From Deltaproteobacteria bacterium RIFOXYA12_FULL_61_11 (GTDB lineage: Bacteria; Bdellovibrionota_F; JAHFAK01; YA12-FULL-61-11), in contig MGSU01000123.1 in the NCBI GenBank assembly GCA_001799195.1, forward strand, positions 1 through 10,988: a stretch of DNA of 10,988 nucleotides. Direction: 5' to 3'. The position numbers and the translations under genes were made by a program. The notes under the pieces were generated by a model. It worked only from the letters and a program-made list of their open reading frames with translations. It made no database searches and was not told the origin of the DNA. Below are positions 6,729 to 10,988 of the stretch, piece after piece (the first letter of the stretch is position 1; every line of letters starts with the position of its first letter).

Positions 6729-6911
6729 CCGGACCTGATCCTTGATATCGGCACTGCAACTATTATTTCGGTATACATGAAGCGGTGGTAAAATAAAATA
6801 AATTCATTATGTTGAATATTGTTATTGTATTCCTGTCACAATTTTCGTATTCATACGAGTTGTTGCAATGGTACTATTTCCAGTGCTCGATGCGGAAAAT
6901 GGACGGGGGTC
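6729..6911. promoter_or_regulatory. AT-rich intergenic promoter region
   Basis: This 183-bp gap is much richer in A+T than the genes around it, especially 6760-6880, as expected for the promoter of the regulator-lipoprotein operon. No -35/-10 pair with both good boxes and 16-18 bp spacing stands out; TTGTAT (6825-6830) with TATTCA (6848-6853) has 17-bp spacing but a poor -10. No intrinsic terminator for the upstream mnmG transcript is visible. Confidence 0.5.
6845..6858. promoter_or_regulatory. 14-bp palindrome, candidate operator of the DUF4423 regulator
   Basis: TCGTAT-TC-ATACGA is a perfect inverted repeat with 6-bp arms and a 2-bp spacer, inside the AT-rich promoter region 54 bp before the regulator's start codon. 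Its position suits an operator for the adjacent DNA-binding protein (autoregulation), but this is an inference from position and symmetry only. Confidence 0.4.
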
Positions 6912-7817
6912 ATGCGCCGCAAGAAGCCCATCAGTGTACTCGGGTACGATAACTATCGCCTCTACCTCGAGGACATGTACCACCACCTTAAGAAGACCCG
7001 GCGCGGCTTCTCGTACCGGGCCTTTTCGGCCATGGCTGGTCTGACCTCTCCGAATTTCCTCAAACTGGTCATCATGGGAGATCGCAACCTCGGTCAGGAC
7101 AGTGTCGAGCGTTGTGCCGAAGCCCTCGATCTGACGAAAAAAGAACACGAGTATTTTCGGGTATTGGTTTCTTTCAACCAAGCGCGAACGACCGAGGAGA
7201 AGAACTGCTACGTCGAGAAGCTGCGCAAGTTCAGACCGACGAAGGAGGTTCGGCGCCTGGAGAAGCGGCACCACCAATTCTGCAGCCACTGGTATATACC
7301 GGTCATTCGAGAAATGGTCGATCTGCAGGAATTCCGACCGGATCCGGCGTGGATCGCCTCGCGTATCAATCCTCCTATCCGCAAGAGCGAAGCCAAGCAG
7401 GCTCTGCATATCCTCGAGGACTTGGGCATCCTCCTACTGGAGCACGGGACCTACCGGAAGAGGGAACGTTCGCTCAGCACCGGCGATGAAGTGCAAAGCG
7501 TTCTGGCCAAGAATTTGCTGCACCAGATGATCCAACTCGGGTGTGAGGCCCTTGACCGGGTTCCCTCGGAACAGCGCGACATCAGCGCCTTGACCTTGTC
7601 CATCACCCAAGCCCAGTTCGAAGCCATCAAACGCAGGATCCAACTCTTCCGCAAGGAAATCCTACAGCTCGCAACGACCGAAGATCGCACGGACAAGATC
7701 TACCAGTTCAACTTCCAGTTCTTCCCCTTGCTGCGAGATCCCGCGGAGGTGGTGGTTACGGCGGAGGAACCTGCAACCCCCGAGAGAACCGAGGACACCG
7801 ATGATGCGACTTCATGA
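6912..7817 (+). CDS. TIGR02147/DUF4423 family HTH regulator
   Basis: This 301-residue cytoplasmic protein matches the TIGR02147/DUF4423 family, which is expanded as paralogues in Fibrobacter and also seen in Bdellovibrio- and Myxococcus-like bacteria. The N-terminal ~85 residues form a helix-turn-helix domain: FSYRAFSAMAGLTSPNFLK at about 33-51, then GDRNLGQDSVERCAEALDLT. The DUF4423 part carries family-typical strings: HWYIPVIREM at 126-135, a winged-helix-like segment ending ALHILEDLGILLLEHGTYRK (164-183), SEQRDISALTLSIT (219-232), and KIYQFNFQFFPL (262-273). The Thr/Glu/Pro-rich tail (280-301) is probably disordered. I chose the ATG at 6912; the longer in-frame TTG reading from 6819 runs through the AT-rich promoter region. 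The 3' end overlaps the lipoprotein start by 17 bp, so the two are translationally linked. Members are usually presumed transcription factors, possibly controlling the adjacent secreted protein. Confidence 0.88.
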   Translation: MRRKKPISVLGYDNYRLYLEDMYHHLKKTRRGFSYRAFSAMAGLTSPNFLKLVIMGDRNLGQDSVERCAEALDLTKKEHEYFRVLVSFNQARTTEEKNCYVEKLRKFRPTKEVRRLEKRHHQFCSHWYIPVIREMVDLQEFRPDPAWIASRINPPIRKSEAKQALHILEDLGILLLEHGTYRKRERSLSTGDEVQSVLAKNLLHQMIQLGCEALDRVPSEQRDISALTLSITQAQFEAIKRRIQLFRKEILQLATTEDRTDKIYQFNFQFFPLLRDPAEVVVTAEEPATPERTEDTDDATS

Positions 7818-9069
7818 TAGGAGCCTAGCCGTAGGGATCGTGTTCCTGTTGATCGGCTGTGTCGACTATTTCTTCGTCGAGGATGAGAAGAAGACCGGGG
7901 ACGTCCGAGAAGAGACTTCCCCTGTTGGGATCAACCCCCTCCTCCCCATCCCGAACCTCGCAGGAGGCACCGAGATCGGCAATCCGATGGCGGGCGGAAC
8001 AGAGCTGGGAAACCCTTACATACTCGAAGGAGTACGGGGAGGTTCACTGGCCGGCGGTGTCGAGATCGGTAATCCCATTCTCATCCCCGAGGACCACGTC
8101 AGGGTCGCCGAGCTCCTCACGTCGAACGAGGGCGGAGCCGTTGCTACCACCTTGCGCCGTCCCGACCTCAACTTCTTGATCCTGGTCACCGATGCTCCTG
8201 CGACCGAAGTCCGCCGCTTCGACGCGAATATCGGTACCGTTCGGGCCCTGCTCGCTCGGGACGGGACCAGGACGAAAGACCTCGAGCTCCTGAACGGTGC
8301 CTTCGAACTGACCGGGCTCACCGGCCTGCGCACGGTGCAACTTGCCGCAGGTTCCCTCCCGGCCGGGATGTGTCACGGAGTGGAGTTGGTGATTGACGGT
8401 TCGACCACCATCAAGCTCGACACGCTGACCGCGACCTTGACGAGATCGCTCCCGGTTCGCGTGTTGGCCGACTTCACCGTGGAACGGCCAGACCAGGTCG
8501 CGTACGTGCTGGTGCTCGATTTCTCGCCCCAGGAGAGCGTGGTCCCCTTTGCCGATGGGTACGATTTCCGCCCGGCAATCACCGTGCGCAGCCTCGCGCG
8601 GTTCGAGAACGGTTTGTACCAGATGCTCTACCCCCTCGAGCCGACCTCGGACGCTCCGGGGACAGGGCAAGCAGGGAACCCGGATCCCGTGGTTTCGCCG
8701 GTGTTCCCACAGCCAGGGTCATCCCCGGGAACGAGTGAGGACCCAGGAGACCCGTCCCCGTCGGTCGACAGCGAAAGCGGTCCGTGCGACGAAGCCCTGC
8801 CGTGCTGCGAGAGCAAGATTCTCAGTCACGATGAATTCTGCCGCAATGCGGAACGCCGTGTGTACATGCTCTGCGAAGAGAAGGTCGGTGATTGCGGTGG
8901 GAAGCTCATCAAGTACGAACAAGGGCAATTCTGTGACGGGGTCAACTCGACGTGCCCCGGCGGTGAAGTGATAACCCGCCGGGTGGAAGTGTGGGCCGAT
9001 TGTTCTGGAAAAGGTCTCGCTTGCTACGACAAAACGCGGGAATGTACCGCCAAACCCGAGTGCCCGTAA
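7801..9069 (+). CDS. DUF4382-like lipoprotein with AGGTEIGNP repeats and a Cys-rich C-terminus
   Basis: This is a 422-residue exported lipoprotein. A short signal peptide (LAVGIVFLLIGC) ends in a lipobox with Cys20 as the lipid anchor; residue +2 is Val and +3 Asp, so outer-membrane sorting is likely but not certain. After a linker come three copies of a nine-residue motif, AGGTEIGNP (54-62), AGGTELGNP (64-72) and AGGVEIGNP (84-92). Residues about 122-225 resemble DUF4382: LILVTDAPATEVRRFDANIG, LELLNGAFEL, and LPAGMCHGVELVIDG. A Pro/Gly/Ser-rich linker (280-327) leads to a C-terminal domain with 12 cysteines (329-421), an even number consistent with disulphides outside the cytoplasm. The start overlaps the DUF4423 gene; GAGG precedes ATG 7801, and ATG 7804 is an equal alternative. 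Role unknown: a surface or periplasmic protein, probably controlled with its upstream regulator. Confidence 0.88.
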   Translation: MMRLHDRSLAVGIVFLLIGCVDYFFVEDEKKTGDVREETSPVGINPLLPIPNLAGGTEIGNPMAGGTELGNPYILEGVRGGSLAGGVEIGNPILIPEDHVRVAELLTSNEGGAVATTLRRPDLNFLILVTDAPATEVRRFDANIGTVRALLARDGTRTKDLELLNGAFELTGLTGLRTVQLAAGSLPAGMCHGVELVIDGSTTIKLDTLTATLTRSLPVRVLADFTVERPDQVAYVLVLDFSPQESVVPFADGYDFRPAITVRSLARFENGLYQMLYPLEPTSDAPGTGQAGNPDPVVSPVFPQPGSSPGTSEDPGDPSPSVDSESGPCDEALPCCESKILSHDEFCRNAERRVYMLCEEKVGDCGGKLIKYEQGQFCDGVNSTCPGGEVITRRVEVWADCSGKGLACYDKTRECTAKPECP

Positions 9070-9176
9070 CGCAGAACGACCGATCGAACCAATGCTTTTT
9101 GCCCCGGACTGTTCCGAGCAGGTAGGTGCGTGGTAGTTTTCCGTGGGGGGCGTTGAAAGGCTCGTGCTACAGAAAC

Positions 9177-9202
9177 GAAAAAGGGCGGCTTGCGCCGCCC
9201 TT
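9177..9202 (-). terminator. strong intrinsic terminator, minus strand
   Basis: The stem arms AAGGGCGGC (9181-9189) and GCCGCCCTT (9194-9202) are perfectly complementary over 9 bp around a 4-nt loop. On the minus strand the stem is followed by a run of five T, the last two of which overlap the stem's A-T pairs. On the plus strand the downstream sequence (TTCCGCC) is not a U-tract, so the element is oriented to end minus-strand transcripts, though it may slow plus-strand ones from the lipoprotein gene. Confidence 0.82.
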
Positions 9203-9260
9203 CCGCCGACTCTTTCGAGCCTGCTTTTATTTGGAAACCTGAATGGTTCCCCCCCTCAAC
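9177..9260 (-). ncRNA. candidate small RNA (~84 nt) between a promoter and an intrinsic terminator
   Basis: A promoter at 9268-9305 predicts a transcript starting near 9260 on the minus strand and ending at the T-run after the terminator hairpin (~9177). The predicted RNA begins with an unusual run of seven G (complement of 9249-9255). It then has a hairpin with GGAACC and GGTTTCC arms (one bulged U), an A-rich single-stranded stretch (AAATAAAAG), a short GGCTC-GAAA-GAGTC hairpin with a GNRA-type loop, and the terminator. It encodes no plausible peptide with a standard start. It stops about 108 nt short of the convergent lipoprotein gene, so it looks like an independent trans-acting RNA rather than an mRNA leader. 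I cannot match it to any known RNA family. Confidence 0.55.
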
Positions 9261-9267
9261 GAATCCA

Positions 9268-9305
9268 TCTATAACACAGTGCGTAATCCAGGTCAACACT
9301 TTTTT
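9268..9305 (-). promoter_or_regulatory. near-consensus sigma-70 promoter with UP-like A-tract
   Basis: On the minus strand TTGACC (9291-9296, 5 of 6) and TATAGA (9268-9273, 4 of 6 with TATA intact) are separated by exactly 17 bp. Six A (9300-9305) lie 3 bp upstream of the -35 box, where the proximal UP element binds RNA polymerase alpha. This is the best promoter-like sequence in the window, and no protein gene lies downstream of it in its direction. Confidence 0.6.
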
Positions 9306-9324
9306 CGGGCGGTACTACCGTCCG
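9306..9324. repeat. inverted repeat upstream of the small-RNA promoter
   Basis: CGGGCGG and CCGTCCG can pair over 7 bp (one G-T pair on the plus strand, one A-C mismatch on the minus strand) around a TACTA loop. It abuts the A-tract of the small-RNA promoter, so it could be a regulator site or part of a larger structured RNA. Confidence 0.4.
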
Positions 9325-9358
9325 AGAACAAGTTCTTTGGATTCGCGGCTGCGTCAAC

Positions 9359-9413
9359 CAGAAGGACCGGAGGAGGTCATCAGGTCGCTGGCCAATCCGG
9401 CACGGTCCTTCTG
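9359..9413. repeat. 11-bp perfect inverted repeat enclosing a 33-nt insert
   Basis: CAGAAGGACCG (9359-9369) and CGGTCCTTCTG (9403-9413) are perfect complements. The enclosed 33 nt can form an inner hairpin on the plus strand (GCTGG-CCAAT-CCGGC, one G-T pair), giving a stem with a branched or bulged interior such as seen in structured RNAs. The element could instead be a protein-binding site or the remnant of a small mobile element; no copy is seen elsewhere in the window. Confidence 0.55.
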
Positions 9414-9442
9414 CATGATTAATGCCATGCGTTACGACAACT

Positions 9443-9457
9443 CGGAATGGTATTCCG
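9443..9457. repeat. 6-bp perfect inverted repeat with 3-nt loop
   Basis: CGGAAT-GGT-ATTCCG can fold into a tight hairpin in either strand's RNA or act as a dyad DNA site. It is one of the series of dyads in the gene-free stretch. Confidence 0.4.
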
Positions 9458-9514
9458 GTCAGCAGGTTGGGTGGGTGTTCGGGAACCAGCGAGTGCTCGG
9501 GGCCGGTGTCTCTT

Positions 9515-9532
9515 CGTCTCCTCGGGGAGACG
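9515..9532. repeat. 7-bp perfect hairpin downstream of the HARE-HTH-like gene
   Basis: CGTCTCC (9515-9521), a TCGG loop and GGAGACG (9526-9532) form a perfect hairpin 21 bp after the stop codon of the minus-strand gene at 9554. It has no T-run on either side, so it is not a standard intrinsic terminator. It may protect the 3' end of that mRNA. Confidence 0.45.
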
Positions 9533-9553
9533 GATGACTCCGCATGGTTGGGA

Positions 9554-10399
9554 TCAGGAGCGCTCGGGAGGACGTCGTTCAGGGAAAGGCACAAGAGAGT
9601 TTTGATCCTGCAGGGAAGTGGGGAGACCGGTGGGAGCTTCCTCGAGGTCCTCGGGTAGGATGGGATTGAAACGACTGTCCTCGGCGAGGACGAGATCGAG
9701 CATATCCGGGATGGTCGGCCCTTTGTGCGGGTAGCGTCCGAAGACCATACGCATGAGCGTCGGTTGGGCCTCGCAGCGTTCCCCCGCGTTCTTCAGGACC
9801 GAGAAAGCCACGTCGGCCAGTTTGCGATTCTCGCGTTGGATGGCGCGTTCCCCGCGGGCCGTCCGGGCGAACTTGCGTATGGCGTAGGTCGTGCCGGCCC
9901 GGTCGAGGACCTGAATCAACAGATCGTCGCCGAGTTCCAGACGTTGTTGGCGGTACCAAAAGGTCAGGTCGGGAAGGACGTAGCGGACATACTCGTCTTC
10001 TAAGCCGAGGTCGAGGGCCACGATCGGTCGTTCCATCACCAGGCCGCCCTCGAGTTGTAAACGGACCAAGCGTTCGGATCGACCCGAGGAGAAGAAGAGG
10101 GGCCAGAACACGAATAATTTACCGCCGTCGAGTTCGAGAATGCCTTCCTCGAGTTCGTAAGCCCGAGGGGTGATGCGGAAGCGTGCCCCCGCGAGGAGGT
10201 CGAGGGTCAGGGCGAACCGGTTGTCTGAGGTCGTCACGAAGAGGTCGTTGGTCCAGCGTTGCAGGACGCGATGCACCTCGCTCGAGCGTTGGCGCAAGCT
10301 CGGGTCGGCCACCAGTAGACCGTCCAGAATCTCTTCGAGGGTAAGGGGCATGCCGGCCTGGAGCAGAACTCGCTCGATTCGGTCTCGCAGGTCATTCAT
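9554..10399 (-). CDS. hypothetical protein with N-terminal HARE-HTH-like winged helix
   Basis: I do not recognise this 281-residue protein as a whole. Residues 1-66 read like a winged helix of the HARE-HTH kind (found in RpoE delta subunits and restriction-linked proteins): RIERVLLQAGMPLTLEEILDGL, a helix with LRQRSSEVHRVLQRW, then a short wing ending DNRFALT. Similarity is judged by eye. The middle (about 67-200) appears beta-rich with alternating hydrophobics (KLFVFWPLFFSS, LVRLQLEGGLVMERPIVALDLG), then GDDLLIQVLDRAGTTYAIRKF. A short helical region follows and the tail is Pro/Arg-rich. There is no signal peptide or membrane segment, so it is probably cytoplasmic. The ATG at 10399 lacks a clear ribosome binding site but gives a natural first helix. 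It lies downstream of mpl in the same direction, but a 216-bp gap with its own candidate promoter suggests separate transcription. Confidence 0.82.
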   Translation of the reverse strand: MNDLRDRIERVLLQAGMPLTLEEILDGLLVADPSLRQRSSEVHRVLQRWTNDLFVTTSDNRFALTLDLLAGARFRITPRAYELEEGILELDGGKLFVFWPLFFSSGRSERLVRLQLEGGLVMERPIVALDLGLEDEYVRYVLPDLTFWYRQQRLELGDDLLIQVLDRAGTTYAIRKFARTARGERAIQRENRKLADVAFSVLKNAGERCEAQPTLMRMVFGRYPHKGPTIPDMLDLVLAEDSRFNPILPEDLEEAPTGLPTSLQDQNSLVPFPERRPPERS

Positions 10400-10615: not shown

Positions 10616-10988
10616 TCAGCAGGGACAACAGGTGGTCGGTGGGATCCGGGTGGCAAGATGGTCGCGTAATTTGCCGTGCAAGCCGTTGAAGCCACCATTG
10701 CTGAGTACGAGGACGAGATCTCCGGCGCGGACTTCGTTGCACAGAATGGCGAGGAGTTCGTCGAAGTGGGCCGGGTGCCTGGCCGAGACTCCTTCTGCGA
10801 GGAGAGTGGCGATTGCGACGGACGGATTGAAACGCTCCTCCGGCGCGATCAGTTCGGGTCTGAACACCGGAGCGATCAGCACGTTCCCTGCCTCACGGAG
10901 AGAGGCGGCGATCTCGTGCTGGAAGATGTTGCGCCGGGTCGAATTGGTACGGGGCTCGAAGACCGTCCACAAGCGTCGGTCGGGGTAT
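10616..10988 (-). CDS. mpl: Mpl (murein tripeptide ligase), C-terminal part
   Basis: The 123 visible residues match the C-terminal domain of UDP-N-acetylmuramate:L-alanyl-gamma-D-glutamyl-meso-diaminopimelate ligase. This Mur-ligase relative re-attaches recycled murein tripeptide to UDP-MurNAc in the cytoplasm. Diagnostic segments are RLWTVFEPRTNSTRRNIFQ, LIAPVFRPE, and VRAGDLVLVLSNGGFNGLHGKL near the end. MurC itself lacks the FEPR-N-S/T-RR and SNGGF-G-H strings in this form, so Mpl is preferred. The gene enters from the right edge; its start and its ATP-binding central domain lie outside the window. The last residues (ATRIPPTTCCPC) end in an unusual Cys-rich tail. The presence of mpl implies a peptidoglycan-recycling, diaminopimelate-containing cell wall. 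Confidence 0.9.
   Translation of the reverse strand, partial: YPDRRLWTVFEPRTNSTRRNIFQHEIAASLREAGNVLIAPVFRPELIAPEERFNPSVAIATLLAEGVSARHPAHFDELLAILCNEVRAGDLVLVLSNGGFNGLHGKLRDHLATRIPPTTCCPC

Follow-up and report, generated by a model that had tools for sequence, protein, structure and literature searches.

Our analysis indicates that the minus strand of the region examined here probably carries a gene for a stand-alone small noncoding RNA (sRNA) of approximately 83 nt, extending from a 5' end at about 9261-9260 to a 3' end at about 9178, as judged from the spacing of a predicted promoter and terminator. This is the best-supported and most likely reading of the locus. A preliminary description had proposed a stand-alone small RNA here, and the proposal is upheld as a prediction by a promoter that is strong on a genome-trained matrix, a T-run on one strand only, a strand-specific fold, and the lack of both a coding open reading frame (ORF) and an Rfam family. 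The window, by which we mean the whole stretch of DNA analyzed (10,988 bases), is the complete contig C123 of a 4.64-Mb, 342-contig draft genome, whose G+C content is about 60% in the portion sampled. The candidate unit sits inside a 484-base gap separating two convergent genes, one on the left (7801-9069, plus strand) for a lipoprotein-like, DUF4382-containing protein and the other on the right (10399..9554, minus strand) for a 281-residue protein of unknown family. Predictions of this type are common, and the candidate is a new orphan example of a very ordinary kind of element. If transcribed, it would provide a candidate sRNA in a phylum that has been poorly sampled, and an entry point to RNA regulation there.

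The predicted promoter is of the sigma-70 type (9268..9296, minus strand) and was recognized by sequence and by a matrix trained on the same genome. It consists of TTGACC (9296-9291), a 17-nt spacer and TATAGA (9273-9268), the latter preceded by TGT, which provides the TG of an extended -10 element. An A6 tract (9300..9305, minus strand) lies immediately upstream of the -35 box and is a possible UP-type element. The two boxes, their spacing and the A6 tract had been named in the preliminary description and are present, but its term "near-consensus" overstates the promoter, because only 9 of the 12 consensus positions match and the -10 box has no conserved T at -7. A stock promoter scan was silent on this site because it requires that T. 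The exact pattern has a single occurrence in the window, and none of 200 shuffled sequences contained it, a comparison in which the pattern was picked post hoc.

We therefore relied on calibration within the genome, using 1.66 Mb of the 4.64 Mb (36%), taken contig by contig, in which 1,122 genes were called through codon usage. In this sample, sigma-70-type sites matching at least 10 of 12 positions were about eight times as frequent upstream of genes as in shuffled sequence and were not found on the antisense strand or in convergent regions, indicating that the organism uses such promoters. A matrix was then trained on 32 upstream sites, with the candidate excluded, and applied to 130-nt tiles; the training sites had been selected for their likeness to the consensus, so that the calibration is partly circular. 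The candidate scored 12.2 bits on this matrix. Scores at least as high were found in 56 of 1,603 upstream-sense tiles (3.5%), compared with 11 of 3,565 coding tiles (0.3%), 4 of 769 antisense tiles (0.5%) and none of 588 convergent tiles. As far as sequence can indicate, the predicted promoter is thus exceptional for its location and strong by the standard of its own genome. The 6S RNA of the same genome provides a useful positive control: its predicted promoter, TTGCCC-17-TATACT, is located 5 nt upstream of the 6S match and also agrees with the consensus at 9 of 12 positions.

The T-tract of an intrinsic terminator (9178..9204, minus strand) is found 85 nt past the -10 box. Its hairpin has a perfect 9-bp core, AAGGGCGGC/GCCGCCCTT (arms at 9202-9194 and 9189-9181), a GCAA loop and a T5 run that is present on the minus strand only, in agreement with the perfect GC-rich hairpin described previously. 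Such structures are rare in this genome. Under a strict definition, which required a T-tract preceded by a stem core with 6 bp or more and no mismatch, 21 sites were identified in 1.66 Mb, 13 of them within genes. When 503 gene ends were examined at the stronger thresholds, a hairpin with a T-run was no more common in the sense than in the antisense orientation. Rho is encoded in the genome, and good terminators follow some tRNA genes, those of L133, L145 and L156 among them. This suggests that the mRNA ends of protein genes are mostly Rho dependent in the sampled contigs (L107-L126 and L157-L256). A strong terminator therefore fits a stable-RNA unit better than the end of an mRNA, on the basis of a few cases. 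Elsewhere in the genome, two identical 12-bp terminator hairpins, CCCGCGGGAGTC-TCAC-GACTCCCGCGGG followed by T5 or T6, were observed in L250 (4517-4544 and 7923-7950), each about 15 nt past a gene and spaced 3.4 kb apart; perhaps a gene was duplicated together with its terminator.

These observations bear on the main rival explanation, in which the hairpin merely terminates the minus-strand gene at 10399..9554, the promoter-like sequence is a chance match or of minor importance, and any short RNA is a product of the 3' untranslated region (UTR). The hairpin is on the same strand as this gene, no better terminator lies closer to it, and the long 3' UTR that would result folds well (z = -4.36). 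However, the hairpin is located about 350 nt beyond the stop codon, the genome encodes Rho and shows no enrichment of intrinsic terminators past its protein genes, and a promoter score this high is very uncommon in places of this kind. We consider this explanation rather unlikely.

The fold of the predicted RNA constitutes a third line of support for a stand-alone sRNA, largely independent of the promoter and the terminator. Three stem-loops are predicted, with an unpaired 5' end (GUUGAGG) and an A-rich linker (CAAAUAAAAG) between them. The 5' hairpin, GGGAACC-AUUCA-GGUUUCC (9233..9251), overlaps a run of seven G residues (9255-9249) and is followed by a middle hairpin with a GAAA tetraloop and one G-U pair (9205..9224), whose plus-strand counterpart is weaker, and by the terminator. 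Both the G run and the GAAA-loop hairpin had been pointed out before, and every element listed at that time was found in its place; the 5' hairpin at 9251-9233 had been left out of the list. The minimum-energy fold of 9264-9177 has a value of -39.9 kcal/mol (z = -4.05). When the terminator is excluded, the 56-nt body gives a z of -3.0 on the minus strand versus -0.3 on the plus strand, a strand specificity that arises because G-U pairs in the stems turn into A-C mismatches on the opposite strand. Among 700 intergenic tiles of the genome, a z of -3 was reached by 1.4% of the tile-strands, and a comparable strand asymmetry was seen in 3 tiles.

The strand specificity also bears on the possibility that the transcript is a cis-antisense RNA, which would pair with the lipoprotein mRNA (7801-9069) in its 3' UTR and control the stability or termination of this mRNA. 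The unit lies opposite a stretch that this mRNA would traverse, and such an effect is possible because no clear T-tailed plus-strand terminator precedes the unit, there being just an unremarkable fold ahead of TTTTATTT (z = -1.56). That the lipoprotein transcript reaches the unit is nevertheless an assumption, and the wobble pairs and the strand-specific folding suggest that the RNA of the minus strand is itself important. We regard a role of this kind as quite improbable.

How often would a promoter and a hairpin be found together by chance? In the 1.66-Mb sample, a promoter this good followed within 300 nt by a hairpin of -16 kcal/mol or lower with at least four T residues was found once, at the candidate itself, versus zero times in the opposite-strand control. 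With looser cutoffs there were 9 promoter-terminator units versus 13 in the control, that is, no excess. By our own estimate, about 0.1 to 0.5 chance pairs are expected across the whole sample, a number that is not negligible, and the pairing alone is therefore suggestive and does not amount to proof. A further alternative is a fortuitous promoter match beside a hairpin with no transcriptional role. Against this, the promoter, the terminator and the strand-specific body fold are each rare and largely independent, and they coincide in the right order and with the right spacing. Coincidence accordingly has only a slim chance of being the correct explanation.

The sRNA reading is further consistent with the protein-coding analysis. 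Among the overlapping ORFs of 80 or more residues, none showed a coding signal; the three ORFs of 91, 115 and 112 residues had negative codon log-odds scores (-14, -10 and -12, whereas the flanking genes scored +72 and +76), and none had a match in NCBIfam. We also considered that the transcript might be a short mRNA encoding a very small protein, for example, MDSLRGGTIQVSK starting from the ATG at 9268. An ATG-to-TAA frame with a G-rich stretch within it does exist, but the ATG overlaps the -10 box and would thus precede the expected start of transcription, and the longer ORFs that span the region have noncoding scores. With the codon scores of the overlapping ORFs all negative, the small-protein explanation was rejected as extremely improbable. 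A riboswitch or attenuator leader was ruled out as well. The unit is not a leader because the flanking genes converge on it and 5 kb separates it from the nearest downstream gene of its own strand, which is found past neighbors in the opposite orientation; this agrees with the earlier statement that no protein gene follows in that direction before the convergent lipoprotein gene. Three of the features expected of an sRNA gene are found at this locus, namely, a predicted host-type promoter of its own, a terminator close downstream on the same strand and no protein-coding frame.

The arrangement resembles that of trans-encoded sRNAs in Sinorhizobium meliloti. In that organism, the pairing of orphan promoters and terminators was among the criteria for sRNA prediction, and candidates were then detected by Northern blotting or microarray (PMC2573895). 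A co-oriented promoter and terminator within 40 to 500 bp in an intergenic region were taken as a single independent transcription unit (PMC2573895). The candidate displays the same orphan promoter/terminator arrangement, a length of about 80 nt and a U-tailed terminator (PMC2573895). It differs in that its host lineage is very distant and in that it is known here from sequence alone.

In agreement with the preliminary description, which could not match the RNA to a known family, an Rfam search at gathering and permissive thresholds gave no family above the cutoff. BjrC68 (RF02353), an sRNA of the Bradyrhizobiaceae, was rejected because it reached 18.6 bits and its gathering score is 39. The last 60 nt or so of the candidate are weakly similar to it, a GCAA-loop terminator coming after a hairpin in this part, and the likeness most likely reflects a shared terminator shape only. 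The 6S RNA (RF00013) of the same genome has a promoter layout of the same type; it is encoded elsewhere (G000:C66), however, and the candidate is half as long and forms three separate hairpins.

The sequence is single copy, no further copies being found in its own genome. Neither the sRNA DNA nor the adjacent 281-residue protein gave a convincing match in 58 other genomes, where the best DNA matches were chance-level pieces of 19 to 37 bases; only one of these genomes shares class and phylum with the host, the others sharing the domain only, and at such distances the result is uninformative either way. A scan with MnmG in GTDB 220 identified no close genome, the best relatives being 44 to 54% identical. 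The terminator hairpin of about 27 nt matches some Rhizobium plasmids (E value of 3e-3 at best), which we take as a chance similarity of terminators. Phage records contained no match for the candidate, and viral contigs no exact match.

If the predicted gene is active, RNA polymerase with the housekeeping sigma factor would initiate on the minus strand at about 9260, and transcription would stop at about 9178, in the U run that follows the GC-rich hairpin, to give the RNA of about 83 nt. The favored mode of action for this RNA would be pairing in trans with mRNAs, either via the A-rich linker or via the unpaired 5' end (GUUGAGG), and an RNA chaperone might assist. Base pairing in trans is a tentative guess from the usual behavior of such RNAs, and we hold it to be possible rather than probable. 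The 5' end, linker and body were used to search 1,030 translation-start regions for duplexes; the best of these were no better than those formed by shuffled RNAs, and for this reason no target is proposed.

As regards a possible dependence on Hfq, an A-rich linker and a U5 tail are present in the predicted RNA, and the sole Hfq-like match in the host is below the cutoff. This match is a 233-residue protein (L257:967-1668, plus strand; contig C76 at about 9174-9875), the only one of the Hfq family found in the genome. It has a cold-shock domain (residues 3 to 64; E value of 1.6e-14) and two weak Hfq-like segments, Hfq_1 at residues 84 to 117 and Hfq at residues 179 to 229, just under the Pfam cutoffs. 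A class-level relative harbors a near full-length relative of the protein (28% identity over residues 2 to 225), and G040 has a partial match restricted to the Hfq-like part (residues 88 to 223). The protein is possibly an unusual RNA chaperone. Since the genome is 87% complete, the lack of a canonical Hfq may reflect no more than a gap in the assembly. It is conceivable, with a low probability, that the candidate represents a trans-acting sRNA specific to its lineage within a deep-branching phylum, partnered by this cold-shock-domain/double-Hfq-like chaperone instead of canonical Hfq.

Several other features of the locus were observed. The DUF4382 lipoprotein-like gene is preceded and overlapped by a gene for a TIGR02147/DUF4423 protein, apparently as a two-gene unit (6909-9069). 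At the other end, a gene at 10616-10987 is cut by the contig end, and the C terminus of its product matches Mpl (UDP-N-acetylmuramate:tripeptide ligase). Within the intergenic gap, an imperfect 12-pair hairpin with G-T pairs (9302-9328) abuts the A6 tract; it is also reported by the stock scan as a weak plus-strand terminator and could be a 3'-end structure of one or the other flanking transcript. The same gap contains a 16-nt inverted repeat (9354-9369 and 9403-9418) that is 88% complementary across a 33-nt loop, with a core of AGAAGGACCG/CGGTCCTTCT and no T-run on either strand.
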